From the NCBI GenBank assembly GCA_946011725.1, contig CAMGBT010000013.1, positions 1 through 40,801 on the forward strand: 40,801 bases of DNA. The letters are read 5' to 3'. A program made the position numbers and the translations under genes. Of the stretch, positions 4,331 through 37,013 are shown piece by piece; position 1 is the first letter of the stretch; each line of letters begins with the position of its first letter. Source of the stretch: an uncultured Bacteroidales bacterium. GTDB lineage: Bacteria; Bacteroidota; Bacteroidia; Bacteroidales; Muribaculaceae. Under the pieces are notes generated by a model. It was not told the origin of the DNA and searched no databases. It saw nothing but the letters and a program-made list of their open reading frames with translations.

Positions 4331-5233
4331 CTATTTGAGGTTGATAATGAAGAGCTCACCTTGCAGGGTGGAGTAGGCAATGCGCTTGCCGTTGGCCGAT
4401 GCCGACGGATAGAAGGCAATCTGGCTGTCGTTGGTCAGAGTCTGGCGGTTGCCGTTGAGGTCGGCCACGACGATGGCTTACTGTGTGAAGTTGACGCCGT
4501 CATCATAATCTTCCATGCCCACCAGCAGGTCGTTGGTGAGCCATTTGGCGGCATTGAGGTAGCCGATGGGGCGCACGTTCGAGCCGTCGATGTTGCACAC
4601 GAAAGTGCCTTCGCCGCACAGACAGTACACCACCTTGGTGCCATCGGGACTTACGGCCGGCCAGATGTACGAGCCGCGGCCTTGCGGGTCGAGGGTGGTG
4701 GTTTCACCATTAATGGTGATTTCCAAATGACCATAGTTGATCGAAGCCACCGGCAGCGATTGCGCCGCGGTGGAGGCAAAACTACGGGCGCGTGCGCGTC
4801 CGTTTTCCACGGCGATCACGCCTGTGCGCGAGATTGCCACGCCGGCATTGAGGTGGCGCGACGGTGCTACAAGCTCCACTTCGCTACCGGTAGCGAAGTT
4901 CACGCTGTGCAACGAGTTCATACGAAGGTGCTCATCGGTAAAGGTCACGGCATTGAACACCACGTTCGCACCGTCGGGTGAGATAACCACTGTGGACGAT
5001 AATCCATTGTTAGTGAGCGTTTTGGTGGCGCCGGTGGCGATGTCCACGCGCGTTAGAGTGCCACCGCCCATCTCGCCAATCACGGCGAAGGACCCATCAG
5101 GGCTGATGGTGGCATGTTCGCTGGCGATGCCCTCCGGTAGCTGCACCCGCTGAGTCGACAGCGGTTCTACCAATTGAGCTTTCACCAACACAGCCATGGC
5201 AAGAGCCACGGTTACGGAGAAAAGTTTCTTCAT
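4331..5233 (-). pseudogene. Secreted TolB/WD40-like beta-propeller protein, interrupted by an in-frame TAA
   Basis: The gene starts with a signal peptide (MKKLFSVTVALAMAVLVKA) and has propeller blades marked by repeated SPDG motifs (ATISPDGSFAVIG, VVISPDGANVVF, AVSPDGTKVVY). Translation stops at TAA 4478-4480 after residue 251 (ending DGVNFTQ). The same frame continues without a shift for another 48 codons as AIVVADLNGNRQTL...FYPSASANGKRIAY...LQGELFIINLK, which is plainly the last blade, ending at TAG 4331-4333. One base change from a Tyr codon (TAC or TAT) would produce the TAA. The TAG lies 9 nt before the amidase start, the spacing expected of an operon. A sequencing error or a real strain-specific nonsense mutation would look the same; a stable truncated protein missing one blade is also possible. 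Confidence 0.8.
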
Positions 5234-5532: not shown

Positions 5533-5901
5533 TCACCTATGCAGCCCTTTGAGATAGTGGTATGTCGTTGAAAATGATTTAAATACATCCCTGATAAAAT
5601 CACCCCTGCGCCAGACGGCGGCAGTAGCAAGACAAGTGTCGTAGCGGAGACCGCCGCCGAAACAGACTTCAGCATTGAATATTTGGCACGTGGAGAGCGT
5701 CTCATCGTCCTCGATGAGCTTCAATATGTCGAATGGCATATTGTTGTCGCCTCCCCACGGCATATAAGAAAGCGTGTCGTCGATGATGACCGGCACGATG
5801 TCAACGTCTTCTTTGAAGACCGCTGACGAGTTCACTTGAAACGCCGCCCGAGCCGACAGGTTCGGTAGCGTTTCGACCGAGTTAAAATTAAGCGAGTCCA
5901 T
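5533..5901 (-). pseudogene. N-terminal fragment of a phage portal-like protein
   Basis: 122 residues. The first 90 or so, with LPNLSARAAFQVNSS, SYMPWGGDNNMPFDILKLIE, DDETLSTCQIFNAEVC and GGGLRYDT, read like the start of the portal-type protein found in Bacteroidales phage-like elements. A portal protein would be several hundred residues long. Here the frame drifts into a Lys/Arg/Tyr-rich tail and stops at 5533, so it is a truncated remnant. The neighbouring 77-residue gene and the chimeric fragment at 6703 suit a decayed phage structural cluster. The portal assignment rests on recognising the motif pattern without a search. Confidence 0.45.
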
Positions 5902-6702: not shown

Positions 6703-7089
6703 TTACCGAAAGGTATAATCATAAGGTTCTGTGAATATGCCTAAGCCTAAGGGATTTCGCTGTGCGATGCGGTTCTCCGCATATCGCCAGAAACCAACGA
6801 AATCAAACAACTTGCCGAACACCACCTTAGGGCCAACAATCGAAATTTGGTCATTGGACAAGCTCTCGATAAAATCCGAGACCTCCTGCTTGGGTGGTGG
6901 ATTGAACAGATTATAGAATGTACCCGTTTGACGAGCGATGAACTCGCGGGCTTGCTCAACCATGCGATCTATCTCCGTCTGGTCAGTTGAGCTCCCAAAA
7001 CTCCTAACCATAACATTGTTTCGCCCCCATTTTTGGAGGACGCGCACGCTGATGGAGCCTGATTTGTTCTTGGATTTATTGATAAACAT
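6703..7089 (-). pseudogene. Chimeric ORF: transposase N-terminus fused in frame to an unrelated C-terminus
   Basis: Starts at the transposase ATG (7087-7089, MFINKSKNKSGSISVRVLQKW) and matches the N-terminus of the transposase at 10830 almost residue for residue up to KLFDFVG (DNA match ends near 6792). It then switches to WRYAENRIAQRNPLGLGIFTEPYDYTFR and stops at 6703. The last part has no counterpart in the IS. Its place, directly upstream of the 77-residue and portal-like genes, suggests it is the C-terminal end of a phage packaging gene, such as a terminase, cut by the IS and a later deletion; that identity is inference. The frame stays open across the join, so a fused protein of 128 residues could be made. 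Confidence 0.6.
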
Positions 7090-7193
7090 AGTACAAAGAT
7101 ACGCCGCGTTACCCAAATTACCAAATCGCCAATAGCTAATTGGTTGAAAATCAGCGAAAAAAAAATCAGCAAAATAGTGACGAAAACAGGAAA
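6792..7193 (-). mobile_element. IS fragment, copy 1 (5' end only; IS1634-like)
   Basis: The 5' part of an IS, shared at high identity with copy 2 (about 10532-10937). It covers the upstream non-coding end, running to the GTGACGAAAACAGGAAA sequence near 7193, and roughly the first 100 codons of the transposase. Everything downstream of codon 100 is missing and replaced by other sequence. The family call comes from copy 2, which keeps the conserved C-terminal part. Terminal inverted repeats could not be defined. Confidence 0.6.
7094..7125 (-). promoter_or_regulatory. Transposase promoter in IS copy 1
   Basis: Minus-strand TTTG (7122-7125) is 20 nt before TATCTTTG (7094-7101). The box lies only 4 nt above the ATG at 7087-7089, so the transcript would be leaderless. 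In copy 2 the same box reads TGTCTTTG, one base off consensus. Confidence 0.5.
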
Positions 7194-7256: not shown

Positions 7257-7284
7257 TTTGATAATCAAAATTTTTGTAACTTTG
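7257..7284 (+). promoter_or_regulatory. Promoter of the three-gene ATPase/STAS cassette
   Basis: TAACTTTG at 7277-7284 is an exact Bacteroidetes -7 box on the plus strand. The best -33 match, TTTG at 7257-7260, is 16 nt upstream, shorter than the usual 19-21. The expected start near 7290 leaves a leader of about 25 nt before the ATG at 7315. The box lies just outside the end of IS copy 1, so the cassette appears to carry its own promoter. Confidence 0.55.
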
Positions 7285-7314
7285 TATTAATTTACTTATA
7301 CACATAATACTCAA

Positions 7315-8628
7315 ATGTTCTCACTAAAGCAATTAATCATTGAGCAAAAGGTTTATCGCAGACGTAGGAAAATGCGCTTGAGTACGAAACGTGCAGATAA
7401 TCGTATTCTTAAGATAAGAGCCGGAGACATAACAAAATATGCATCAAAGGTTATTCAGTTTATACTTGAGCAAGGTGGAAGCAGAAAATACACATCAAAC
7501 GAAATTGATGTGCCGCAACGAATGTGCTTTAAGTCAAACTTCATTGATTGCGTAAACTTCTTAAATGACGTTGTATTGGCATACTGCAATAACACTGGTA
7601 ATCTCATACTGAATTTTTCAAATTGTAAGGAGGCTTCAATTTCTGCACTTATAACATTAAAAACGATTCTGGAGGAATTGCTTATTTTTGGTCAAAATAC
7701 TGCAAAAAGCAGATACAAAGAAAAAGCAAAATCAATCAGAATGATTCCATCTAAATCAAATAAAATAAATAGATACTTATTTACTCTTCACGTTGCAAAT
7801 TTCCCTGTCAGTGAGGAAGAACAACGAGAGTATATATCGTTAGGTCTGCATAGAGGAAAATCTCGGAACTACAAGGAAAATAGAAAATCAGTTGTCTCTC
7901 GAATCGTAACACAGTTTGTAGAAAACACAGCAGAGAGGTTCAGTGTGGGGTTTGATGAACGTGGGCAAAACTACATGGAGGGTATGGTAGGTGAGATTTT
8001 GTCCAACGCAGAAGACCACAGCCTTAAAAAAAGTGAATGGTTCGTTGATGGAGTTTCTTTCCTTCACAAAGAAAAAGATAATGAAGTCATAGAGTTCAAT
8101 TTAGCAATTATAAACTATGGATATTCTATGTACGATGGATTTGAACAGACAAAAAATGAGAATTATCAAACTTACGAGAAATTAGAGTGGCAATATAAGA
8201 TACATAAGAATCTTTTCTCAATTACCAAAAAATTTGAGAGAGAACCATTGTTTGTTCTATATATGCTAAATGAGGGTATCAGTCGCTTGAAGTACTTAGA
8301 ACCAAGTCGTGGTAATGGAACAATGACGTTTATCAAATCATTTATTGAGTTGGGAAAATTCTGTAACGAAGATTCTTCATATGAGCCTGAGATGAACATT
8401 ATTTCAGGTCATACTGTTTTAACTTGTACGGAAGAATATGCTCCTTTTTCTGATAATAATCACTATAAACTTACATTAAACAAAGAAAAGTCTTTAAGCG
8501 CATTACCTGATTCTTCTGTGCTAAAATATTTCGCAGGAGCAGTATTCCCTGGAACAATATTGGATTGTAAGATTTTTCTTAACAAACGAGACTTGGAAAA
8601 AAACATAAAAGATAAAGTGAATAACTAA
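7315..8628 (+). CDS. GHKL (histidine kinase-like) ATPase-domain protein, first gene of the cassette
   Basis: 437 residues, AT-rich, no signal peptide. The C-terminal half looks like a GHKL ATP-binding domain: the N-box-like E227-IL-x-N231-AEDH235 (GEILSNAEDHS) and, about 100 residues later, a glycine-rich segment RGNGT (332-336) followed by MTFIKSFIELG. No phospho-accepting His domain and no membrane segment is visible, so it resembles a stand-alone anti-sigma-factor-like or MORC/Hsp90-like ATPase more than a sensor kinase. The N-terminal half (1-200) is unassigned and basic at the start (KVYRRRRKMRLSTKR). A second ATG at residue 20 is a possible alternative start. The next gene encodes a STAS-like protein 17 nt downstream, the classic companion of such an ATPase. 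The ATPase call is moderate and the signalling role is inferred. Confidence 0.65.
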   Translation: MFSLKQLIIEQKVYRRRRKMRLSTKRADNRILKIRAGDITKYASKVIQFILEQGGSRKYTSNEIDVPQRMCFKSNFIDCVNFLNDVVLAYCNNTGNLILNFSNCKEASISALITLKTILEELLIFGQNTAKSRYKEKAKSIRMIPSKSNKINRYLFTLHVANFPVSEEEQREYISLGLHRGKSRNYKENRKSVVSRIVTQFVENTAERFSVGFDERGQNYMEGMVGEILSNAEDHSLKKSEWFVDGVSFLHKEKDNEVIEFNLAIINYGYSMYDGFEQTKNENYQTYEKLEWQYKIHKNLFSITKKFEREPLFVLYMLNEGISRLKYLEPSRGNGTMTFIKSFIELGKFCNEDSSYEPEMNIISGHTVLTCTEEYAPFSDNNHYKLTLNKEKSLSALPDSSVLKYFAGAVFPGTILDCKIFLNKRDLEKNIKDKVNN

Positions 8629-8645
8629 CGAAATATATAAACGAA

Positions 8646-9005
8646 ATGGAAACAAAACATATTACAATGACAACAGAACATCGAGGAGGGAAATCGAGCT
8701 CTTCTTTTTCTGGACGTGCTGAAGGAGAAAAGGTTCGAGAAGTCTTGTCACTTGATGAAAAAGATGTTGATGATTGCAATTACATCATAGACATTCCTTC
8801 TGGTACATCTGCGTTTAATCCATCTTTTTATTTAGGATTTCTTTTTCCAAGTATCAAAAATCTTGGAGTTGAGAAATTCCTTTCAAAGTATCAATTTAGT
8901 TTTTCAAATCTATCACCTACACTTAAATCATTGATTGAAGATGATTTGCGTGAAGGGCTACGAAATGCGTCTAATGAACTAAATTTCTCAACAGGGTTAG
9001 ATTAA
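8646..9005 (+). CDS. STAS-like (DUF4325-like) small protein, second gene of the cassette
   Basis: 119 residues. The centre reads SLDEKDVDDCNYIIDIPSGTSAFNPSFYLGF, then LFPSIKNLGVEKFLSKYQF. This is the strand-helix pattern of a STAS-like domain of the DUF4325 kind: a beta strand ending in IID, a short loop, then PSF opening a helix. The N-terminal 45 residues are polar, with a Ser/Gly run (GGKSSSSFSGRAEGEK). STAS proteins bind GHKL anti-sigma-like kinases in partner-switching systems, and this gene directly follows such an ATPase. The similarity is structural in flavour and weak in sequence, so it needs a profile search. The gene is followed 5 nt later by the third member. Confidence 0.5.
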   Translation: METKHITMTTEHRGGKSSSSFSGRAEGEKVREVLSLDEKDVDDCNYIIDIPSGTSAFNPSFYLGFLFPSIKNLGVEKFLSKYQFSFSNLSPTLKSLIEDDLREGLRNASNELNFSTGLD

Positions 9006-9010
9006 CTAAT

Positions 9011-9532
9011 ATGGATTGTAAAATTGCATTATCTGATATTATCACGTGGGGATTGACAATTTTAGGATTTGCTATTGCTATATGGCAATTCAGAAGTCAA
9101 ATGACAAAAGATAGAGAAAACCGTGTTAAAGAGAATAAAACTACGTGGTTCCTTAATGTAATCGTTCTGCCTCATTTAGAAGGGCTTCACAAATTCTATA
9201 AAGAATTGAGTGAAAACGTTCAATCAGAATCAAAGGAACTGGATAATTATACAACGCGAGAGCACAAAGTCTTTTTAGAACAAAAAGGAAAGGCAATTAA
9301 TTCGTTAAAAAAAGATATCTCAGATTTTTTTGACTTTCTAAATCCTTTAATAATTTCTCATTCAAATTCGTTAGGAAAAGAAATTCAACAAATCAAAAAT
9401 GATCTCGAAGATGATATAGCAAAATTCTTTGATAAAGAAGATAGATCTTTAGACTTAATATCTATCAAAATTAATAATAACAAGCAAAAGTTACTTCAGG
9501 CTCTAAACTGTGAGTTATCAGTAAACAAATAA
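9011..9532 (+). CDS. Membrane-anchored helical protein, third gene of the cassette
   Basis: 173 residues. One N-terminal transmembrane segment (about 9-27, DIITWGLTILGFAIAIWQF) is followed by a basic stop-transfer stretch (RSQMTKDRENRVKENK) and a long, charged, helical cytoplasmic region with coiled-coil character (HKFYKELSENVQ, KKDISDFFDFLNPL, KEIQQIKNDLEDDIAKFF). No enzyme motif is seen. The start lies 5 nt after the STAS-like stop, so translation is probably coupled. A terminator follows directly, which marks this as the last gene of the unit. It could be the membrane output or sensor of the module; nothing in the sequence shows which. Confidence 0.6.
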   Translation: MDCKIALSDIITWGLTILGFAIAIWQFRSQMTKDRENRVKENKTTWFLNVIVLPHLEGLHKFYKELSENVQSESKELDNYTTREHKVFLEQKGKAINSLKKDISDFFDFLNPLIISHSNSLGKEIQQIKNDLEDDIAKFFDKEDRSLDLISIKINNNKQKLLQALNCELSVNK

Positions 9533-9533
9533 A

Positions 9534-9568
9534 ATAAGCGGGGCTATCAACCTCGCTTATCTTTTTCT
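9534..9568 (+). terminator. Rho-independent terminator of the three-gene cassette
   Basis: ATAAGCGGGG (9534-9543) pairs with CCTCGCTTAT (9551-9560) around a 7-nt loop, with one G-T wobble, and is followed by CTTTTTCT. It begins two bases after the TAA of the third gene. Confidence 0.8.
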
Positions 9569-9839: not shown

Positions 9840-10830
9840 TCATGCGTTACCCAAATCGCGTTTGACCCAATTTTCGACCAGCCGGAAGAGCTCAGCCTGC
9901 TCTTCATCCATGCCAAGCATCACCTTAGTTGGCTGTGTGTGGCCGGGCTTGGTGTAGGTTAGAGCGTACATGGTTTTGACAAGCTCGCGAGCTCTTTCCA
10001 AAGTAATGGTGGACTGGGCTGCTTTCAGCAAGCGTTCCATCTCTAACTACAAAACGTAGGCGCAGAAGCAGATACATATATGTCCTTCGATTCGATTGCG
10101 CAGACGGTGGTACATTGGCCGGATCTGAAGGTCGGATTTGTTCATCCGGAATGCTCGCTCGATAAACCACAGGTTGTGGTAGTTGGCAATCACTTCTTCA
10201 TCGGTTAGTTTGGTGTTGGTTACATATCCTTTGAGGCCATCCCAAACTGCATCTTGCTCGAAGGCCTCAAGGTCTATACTTATGGTTGTCTCACCTTCAA
10301 GACGGAGGTATTTGTTTGGAGCTATGCGCAAAAGTAATCTGTTCAATGCGATCCTTGATGTCAGCCTTTGCCGGATTACGGTCACAAAGTTTATCAAGAT
10401 ATCGATAAACCTTATTCACGTCATACGCCACCCCATTGTATCTCCAAAGATAATCAACCGTTTTCAGCTTACTGCCGGGTGCCACCAGCCGACTCAAAAC
10501 CAGCGGGCGGAACAACCCTCCAATCTTTCCATAACCAACGTAATCAAACAACTTGCCGAACACCACCTCAGGGCCAACAACCGAAATTTGGTCATTGGAC
10601 AAGCTCTCGATAAAATCCGAGATCTCCTGATTGGGTGGTGGATTGAACAGATTATAGAATGTACCCGATTGACGAGCGATGAACTCGCGGGCTTGCTCAA
10701 CCATGCGATCTATCTCCGTCTGGTCAGTTGAGCTCCCAAAACTCCTAACCATAACATTGTTTCGCCCCCATTTTTGGAGGACGCGCACGCTGATGGAGCC
10801 TGATTTGTTCTTGGATTTATTGATAAACAT
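9840..10830 (-). pseudogene. IS1634-like transposase, internally deleted and with a nonsense codon
   Basis: The N-terminal part starts at the ATG 10828-10830 (MFINKSKNKSG) and reads through RLVAPGSKLKTVDYLWRY to DRIEQITFAHS. Near 10325-10335 the frame changes and the protein resumes in the C-terminal region (LRLEGETTISIDLEAF, then YVTNTKLTDEEVIANYHNLW and FIERAFRMNKSDLQIRP), so the middle of the DDE domain is missing. A TAG at 10047-10049 then interrupts AYVL*LEMERLL, after which the same frame continues to TGA 9840-9842. The retained block Y..LW.IE..FR..KSDL..RP is the E region of the DDE domain, typical of IS1634/IS4-group enzymes. At least two independent lesions show that the gene is dead. 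Confidence 0.75.
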
Positions 10831-10937
10831 GGTGCAAAGACACGCCGCGTTACCCAAATTACCAAATCATCAATAGCGAATTATTTGAAAATCAGCGAGA
10901 AAATTTTTCAGCAAAAAAGTGATGAAAACAGGAAAAT
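9840..10937 (-). mobile_element. IS fragment, copy 2 (IS1634-like, internally deleted)
   Basis: The upstream end runs to about 10937, where the match with copy 1 stops (…GAAAACAGGAAA), and abuts direct repeat B. The downstream boundary lies somewhere at or below 9840; I could not see a convincing inverted-repeat end. It has the same orientation as copy 1 and differs from it by only scattered substitutions over the shared 400 nt, so both came from closely related copies. Confidence 0.6.
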
Positions 10938-36239: not shown

Positions 36240-37013
36240 ATGAAACGAGGCACCTCTGAATTATTAGCCCATTGGATGGAACTGAAGCCTTTGCGAGATA
36301 AGGCCAAGGACAGGCTTGCTCGAAAGTTCTCGATTGAGTTCAACTATAACTCCAACCATATTGAAGGCAACACTTTGACTTACGGCCAGACGGAAGTATT
36401 GCTACTATTCGGTAAGGTTATAGGCGAAGCTAAAATGCGCGACCTTGAAGAGATGAAGGCTCACAACATCGGCCTTCGGATGATCCTTGATGAGGCTTGC
36501 ACTGACCGTCCTTTGACGGAGATGTTTATACGCCAAGTACACCAAACGCTATTACGAGAGGATTATGTGGTCCATCGTACTCTTCCCGGCGGTATGAGCA
36601 GTTCATACACCGTTCACGCAGGATGCTACAAGACGCGCCCCAATTCGGTGATAACACTCTCAGGTGAACGCTTTGAGTATGCTTCGCCGGAGGAAACTCC
36701 AATGCTGATGACCGATTTGATTCAATGGTATCAAACCGAAGAGGCCAAGGGCGAACTTAATCCATTGGAGCTGGCTGCAATGTTTCATTATCGCTATATC
36801 CGAATACATCCATTTGAGGATGGTAATGGTCGCATAGCACGCTTGATAATGAACTATATCCTGAGCCGACATCAATATCCATTGATTGTAGTGCCAACAA
36901 AGTCCAAGCAGGAATATCTGTCGGCATTATCGGCCGTGGATGTTGCCGTTGGCTCGTTGCCCGTGAATGGTGCGCGTGCAAACTTGCAACACGTGCGGCC
37001 ATTTATAGACTAG
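36240..37013 (+). CDS. Fic family protein (class II, AMP-transferase fold), C-terminally truncated
   Basis: 257 residues up to TAG 37011-37013. The Fic active-site motif is intact: H190-PFEDGNGR198 in IRIHPFEDGNGRIARLIM. The N-terminal inhibitory motif (S/T)xxxE(G/N) is S38-NHI-E42-G43 in YNSNHIEGNTLTYGQ, so this is a class II Fic with its own antitoxin-like helix. A beta-hairpin flap region is present (GGMSSSYTVHAGCYKTRPNSV). Fic proteins transfer AMP (or other groups) to target hydroxyls. The same frame continues after the stop as LERLMVAEMQ and a winged helix, so the full protein was about 355 residues and the stop is most simply a Tyr-to-stop change (FID-Y-LERLM). The catalytic domain should still fold. 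Confidence 0.85.
   Translation: MKRGTSELLAHWMELKPLRDKAKDRLARKFSIEFNYNSNHIEGNTLTYGQTEVLLLFGKVIGEAKMRDLEEMKAHNIGLRMILDEACTDRPLTEMFIRQVHQTLLREDYVVHRTLPGGMSSSYTVHAGCYKTRPNSVITLSGERFEYASPEETPMLMTDLIQWYQTEEAKGELNPLELAAMFHYRYIRIHPFEDGNGRIARLIMNYILSRHQYPLIVVPTKSKQEYLSALSAVDVAVGSLPVNGARANLQHVRPFID

Follow-up and report, generated by a model that had tools for sequence, protein, structure and literature searches.

A three-gene unit encoding a homologue of VapK-type kinases, a small STAS-like protein and a one-TM helical protein (genes A, B and C) was found in the window, which is the whole 40,801-nucleotide stretch of Bacteroidales (Muribaculaceae) contig DNA that was analyzed. The trio probably serves in phage defence or in a shutdown under stress, and it would be a previously unrecorded cousin of VapKSC. 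It should be called a relative of CapKS and VapKSC that follows the same logic and not a member of either, because the PIN toxin of VapKSC and the DNA-binding domains of CapKS are missing.

The main text of Chambers et al. (EMBO J 2026; PMC13373217) describes CapKS as a STAS-GHKL kinase-substrate pair that controls immune operons, in which CapK (HTH-STAS-GHKL) phosphorylates CapS (STAS-wHTH) on ssDNA and a promoter is thereby released. In the vapKSC operon, described there as a toxin-antitoxin system, VapK acts on VapS and frees a PIN toxin (PMC13373217). VapKSC conferred ~100-fold (about 2-log) protection against one phage, which required the Ser, the putative ssDNA-binding residue of VapK, and the toxin; the aromatic residues VapK F54 and CapK W68 are those that stack with ssDNA (PMC13373217).

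Gene order, inheritance and genomic context of the trio

The trio and the features closest to it in the window are as follows.

6792..7091, - strand: truncated IS transposase copy in the left flank, 98% identical to 10533-10832
7277..7285, + strand: Bacteroidota-type -7 promoter element TAACTTTGT, 30 nt before the gene A ATG (weak evidence)
7315..8628, + strand: gene A, 437 aa; basic helix, STAS-like domain and divergent GHKL ATPase/kinase domain (VapK/CapK-like)
8646..9005, + strand: gene B, 119 aa; DUF4325-family STAS-like protein
9011..9532, + strand: gene C, 173 aa; one-TM protein whose helical bundle is probably cytoplasmic; putative effector, or else an anchor in the membrane
9534..9560, + strand: intrinsic terminator of the operon, a hairpin and T-tract (fold energy -13.4 kcal/mol, z = -5.4)
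10047..10857, - strand: IS transposase remnant DDE_Tnp_1 in the right flank (Pfam PF01609, E 2.6e-6)

All three genes are intact open reading frames on the + strand, separated by 17 nt (A-B) and 5 nt (B-C), and their GC content is 31-35% compared with ~60% in the surroundings. The first-pass annotation had described three intact, tightly spaced and AT-rich genes with a strong terminator, and each of these features was confirmed. Its further claim that the trio has its own promoter was over-stated. A weak -7 element is present, such elements being only mildly enriched upstream (7 versus 2.9 expected), but no sigma70-type site above background was detected upstream of gene A.

As had also been proposed, the trio lies in a decayed mobile island rich in IS and phage remnants. 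The truncated IS fragment of the left flank has more copies elsewhere in the same genome. The right flank holds a DDE transposase piece (10047-10397) and a second copy of the IS fragment (10533-10832), and a phage portal protein fragment was found near the trio at 5533-5901 (phrog_11226, 4e-4). A related trio also occurs on phage-like contigs (L026-L028). Since none of the 48 other genomes of the genus carries gene A (present in 1 of 49), the trio was probably acquired recently. In a search for an empty site, the gltD-like gene of the right flank was present in 19 of 21 genus genomes, but the left flank was not syntenic, and the empty site could therefore not be cleanly delimited. A PD40 gene in the left flank (4478-5233) has a 74%-identical copy on contig C14 of the same genome and an additional 70% partial match on contig C66. 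Farther away, positions 36240-37013 encode a Fic/DOC-domain protein (PF02661, 2e-21), a further possible conflict gene.

Distant homologues of A (25-29% identity) were detected by tblastn on seven plasmid records, and in all five records inspected two genes of the expected size come after A. The alignment of these plasmid homologues was used to search genome and viral contigs for more, and a phylum search added two full trios. The first-pass annotation had named a neighbourhood survey as the check on whether the three genes co-occur and lie near known defence genes. In all 36 loci retained after duplicate removal, A is followed by B and then C in constant order and on the same strand. The only exceptions are L024, where the contig ends inside A, and L071, where the third gene was assigned by position and not by profile. 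The genes mostly overlap or are separated by gaps within ~25 nt. The hosts belong to at least four phyla and include Bacteroidota, Gammaproteobacteria, Burkholderia, Clostridia MAGs and one Gemmatimonadales MAG, and the trio is carried on chromosomes, plasmids (some of them small and mobilisable, such as a 6.8-kb Providencia plasmid) and prophages. Tblastn searches with A against GenBank phages and blastn searches for a prophage trio in E. coli genomes returned no match.

Between pairs of loci, the degrees of divergence in A, in B and in C are correlated (Mantel r 0.88, 0.85 and 0.79; values reached by 0 of 5000 permutations), and the trio has thus been inherited as a block. Its nearest relative is the trio of a Bacteroides MAG (L007), with 68% identity overall and 67, 75 and 59% identity for A, B and C, respectively. 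Between these two trios pN was 0.16-0.26 and pS 0.79-0.89, which supports purifying selection on all three genes and agrees with the selection that had been suspected from their undamaged state.

Several copies occupy positions typed as prophage cargo. In a P2-like IMG/VR contig (L031) the trio has a CI-type repressor on one side and an integrase on the other, both confirmed with PHROGs, and in a second IMG/VR contig (L034) a PHROGs-confirmed integrase follows downstream. PHROGs-confirmed terminase genes lie near the trio in L033 and L035, with the trio upstream of them in L033, and the trio likewise precedes terminase genes assigned by reading alone in L075 and L076. Defence genes lie within 5 kb of some copies, which is an association and not an enrichment. 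On a Spirosoma plasmid (L003) the neighbour is Zorya II (ZorA2, ZorB2 and ZorE2), and in L020 a Type I methylase, AbiEi, AbiEii and a specificity subunit come directly after the trio. A PLD-helicase (L023) and a HamB-type helicase (L010) lie near two other copies. Gene content after C differs between loci; in the window, the trio is closed by its own terminator.

Domain make-up of the three proteins

In the AlphaFold2 model of A (20-row alignment; pLDDT 86, pTM 0.88), residues 2-35 form a long N-terminal helix, residues 63-182 a mixed alpha/beta domain and residues 190-423 a GHKL-like domain. Against a VapK-type profile, built from the K proteins of vapKSC-type and related DUF4325 loci, A was aligned by hhalign over 275 columns spanning STAS and GHKL (Prob 98.2, E 5e-14), and some of the reference kinases themselves match Pfam HATPase_c (1.7e-6) and STAS. 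Judged by this profile comparison, A is homologous to VapK-type kinases over its full length. The earlier description of A as a GHKL ATPase captured its divergent GHKL domain but overlooked the STAS-like domain and the basic N-terminal helix of the same protein. The window A has no Pfam, NCBIfam or PADLOC family and no Pfam HTH, and it matches phrog_3364, a family of unknown function, at 4e-7. Foldseek against the PDB gave no match below 1e-3; the four best entries, all of them weak (top E 0.08), were UsfX/RsfB or SigF/UsfX structures. One match at 3e-4, without a name, was obtained among viral structures.

The N-box-like (GEILSNAEDHS) and G-rich (RGNGT) motifs to which the first-pass annotation had drawn attention are the best-conserved parts of A among 35 homologues. 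Residues E227, N231, H235, G269, R332, G333 and G335, which cover the N-box and RGxG, are invariant in 35 of 35. Position 267 corresponds to the G1-box Asp, which is invariant in the VapK-type reference set; in the trio it is Asn in 33 of 35 homologues and Asp in two, both from Clostridia. Relative to the GHKL superfamily, A thus keeps the N-box and RGxG while the G1 Asp is mostly replaced, and this substitution may alter ATP binding or catalysis. The first 50 residues of full-length members contain 11-23 K/R compared with 0-7 D/E. No conserved aromatic is present at residues 105-107, to which VapK F54 was mapped by inference, and because of this the ssDNA trigger may not apply to the trio. 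The basic N-terminal helix could be an alternative sensor to ssDNA stacking.

A STAS-like nature had been predicted for B and is supported at the family level. Nine of 19 B homologues match Pfam DUF4325 (PF14213, "STAS-like"; best 2.3e-9), the Spirosoma homologue exceeding the gathering cut-off at 23.1 bits, and hhalign against a VapS-type profile gave an E value of 2.7e-5. The window B is itself too divergent to reach the DUF4325 threshold and has no Pfam, NCBIfam or PADLOC family. The profile searches that the first-pass annotation had named as the check on the GHKL and STAS folds recovered homology for A (VapK-type) and for B (VapS-type, and DUF4325 through its homologues). Neither of the outcomes that it had listed as refuting, lack of a GHKL or STAS fold and absence of co-occurrence of the three genes, was observed. 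Gly23, Gly27 and Ser60 are invariant in 34 of 34 B sequences. Ser60 occupies the N-terminal end of the helix that carries the phosphorylation site in SpoIIAA, CapS and VapS, and in the profile alignment it falls one residue after VapS S48 and SpoIIAA S58. At the exact position of the VapS phospho-Ser, residue 59 is S, P, T or K (Ser in 19, Pro in 13), the window B having Pro. Ser60 is accordingly termed here a candidate phosphoacceptor.

Gene C encodes a one-TM helical membrane protein, as initially described: a TM segment was predicted in 33 of 34 homologues with a simple hydropathy cut-off, and the AlphaFold2 model (pLDDT 87) consists of a 72-residue helix holding the TM segment and three further helices. 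Positive charges after the TM segment suggest that the helical domain is cytoplasmic. A W....(I/V)(I/V).P motif is frequent among C homologues, and some gammaproteobacterial members have, by reading, an additional signal-like N-terminus. Searches of Pfam, NCBIfam and PADLOC with C gave only chance-level matches and no PIN match, and Foldseek returned only helical bundles at chance level (FliS and designed proteins, for example) and no known effector fold. C is nevertheless a putative effector on account of its gene position, which is the one that the VapC toxin occupies in vapKSC.

Comparison with known systems and alternative readings

The partner-switching logic without a sigma factor that had been read from the window matches the published anti-phage design of CapKS and VapKSC (PMC13373217). 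Like VapKSC, the trio is a three-gene operon in which a STAS-GHKL kinase without an HTH is combined with a small STAS protein and a third gene, C being placed like VapC, and both are mobile and found close to defence genes. In contrast to VapKSC, the third gene of the trio encodes a one-TM helical protein and not a PIN nuclease (gene 3 of a vapKSC-type locus, L040, does match PIN), A starts with a basic helix, its GHKL domain is rich in insertions and its G1 Asp is replaced by Asn, the invariant Ser of B lies one residue away from the VapS site, and a conserved aromatic is lacking at the mapped ssDNA-stacking position. With CapKS the trio shares a STAS-GHKL kinase gene followed by a STAS-substrate gene and an association with defence. 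However, CapK has an N-terminal HTH where A starts with one long basic helix, CapS has a C-terminal wHTH where B has ~110-120 aa and no extra domain, and the trio brings its own third gene in place of controlling a downstream immune operon. The main text of Chambers et al. contains no membrane-protein variant; "transmembrane" occurs zero times and "membrane" four times, in passages that are unrelated where seen (PMC13373217). No published description of the trio was found in a search that had most subscription papers, preprints and supplements outside its scope.

We lean towards a self-contained module of the CapK/VapK kind, in which A would phosphorylate B, B would free C and C would halt growth at the membrane, resulting in phage defence. 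The STAS-GHKL kinase A would be cytosolic and would detect infection or damaged nucleic acid, for which its basic N-terminal helix, the STAS-GHKL groove or both might serve. In the resting state, B would be bound to C and C would be held inactive. Once triggered, A would phosphorylate B, most likely at the invariant Ser60, and phosphorylated B would release C, which could then act at the inner membrane and stop growth. The outcome would be a population shielded from phage or a stabilised carrier mobile element. We infer the defence function from context, namely the defence-gene neighbours and the prophage cargo slots. A broader and more tentative proposition, plausible but short of probable, is that there is a widespread and undescribed class of kinase-STAS-membrane-effector immune modules, in which a divergent GHKL kinase with Asn in the G1 box and a basic N-terminal sensor helix would respond to a non-ssDNA trigger and free a new type of single-TM helical effector from a DUF4325 antitoxin. 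The CapK/VapK switch would in that case be a general control unit for different killing devices, membrane attack included.

Carriage on small mobilisable plasmids and prophages would also fit a toxin-antitoxin-type addiction module, with C as toxin, B as antitoxin and A as a stress-releasing kinase, and with defence incidental or absent; VapKSC itself is described as a toxin-antitoxin system in the main text of PMC13373217. Some copies of the trio, however, lie in chromosomal defence neighbourhoods, and three co-conserved genes that include a sensor kinase exceed the needs of plasmid addiction, so that we consider such a role unlikely. It is more doubtful still that A functions as a pseudokinase or as an ATP-dependent scaffold, the switch then operating by nucleotide-dependent binding of B and not by phosphorylation, a proposal that would be compatible with the module of the CapK/VapK kind. 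The Asn at position 267, set against the invariant Asp of the VapK-type kinases, would favour it, but the catalytic Glu, Asn and His of the N-box and the RGxG loop are invariant in A, and Ser60 of B is invariant, as a phosphoacceptor would be.

GHKL/STAS pairs classically control sigma factors, as in SpoIIAB/SpoIIAA and RsbW/RsbV, and the one TM and modelled cytoplasmic helical bundle of C could serve as an anchor. The trio could on these grounds be a stressosome-like membrane stress sensor or relay, in which A and B would be brought to the membrane by C, acting as sensor or anchor, and the output would be regulation of host targets and not killing. The GHKL kinase and STAS antagonist logic is indeed that of anti-sigma partner switching (SpoIIAB/SpoIIAA, RsbW/RsbV, UsfX/RsfB), but in the trio A has a fused STAS domain, the membrane protein is always present, and no sigma factor or PP2C phosphatase recurs nearby. 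No sigma factor, phosphatase or other output gene recurs across the 36 loci, in which B and C are the only constant partners of A, and a sigma factor was therefore rejected as the missing partner. Moreover, the trio is self-contained, sporadic and mobile, which fits conflict modules better than housekeeping regulation. We regard a relay of this kind as very unlikely.

VapKSC (2026) established that a toxin can be kept in check by a kinase-STAS pair, and the trio suggests that the same switch may be coupled to a membrane protein. The kinase-STAS pair would then be a modular defence chassis. A function would also be provided for part of DUF4325 and phrog_3364, both families of unknown function.

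Other DUF4325 loci

Searches via DUF4325 also recovered vapKSC-type loci (STAS-GHKL, VapS and PIN, or parts of this set) in Bacteroidota (L040, L045, L052, L060 and L065). L039 (1522-3363) has a more distant arrangement of three genes, of which the first encodes a 369-aa protein weakly similar to A (E 8e-4), the second a DUF4325 protein (3e-11) and the third a membrane protein; this locus is possibly a second membrane-effector branch. In L041, L042, L044, L046-L050 and L053, DUF4325 forms the C-terminal end of ~260-360-aa open reading frames, the N-terminal parts of which are HTH-like and GHKL-like where read; these possibly combine kinase and substrate in a single chain. Kinase-STAS pairs without an obvious toxin were seen in further Bacteroidota loci (L056-L059), the L059 stretch containing the STAS gene only. 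In L061, genes for a RadC-domain protein and an integrase come after a kinase-STAS pair.
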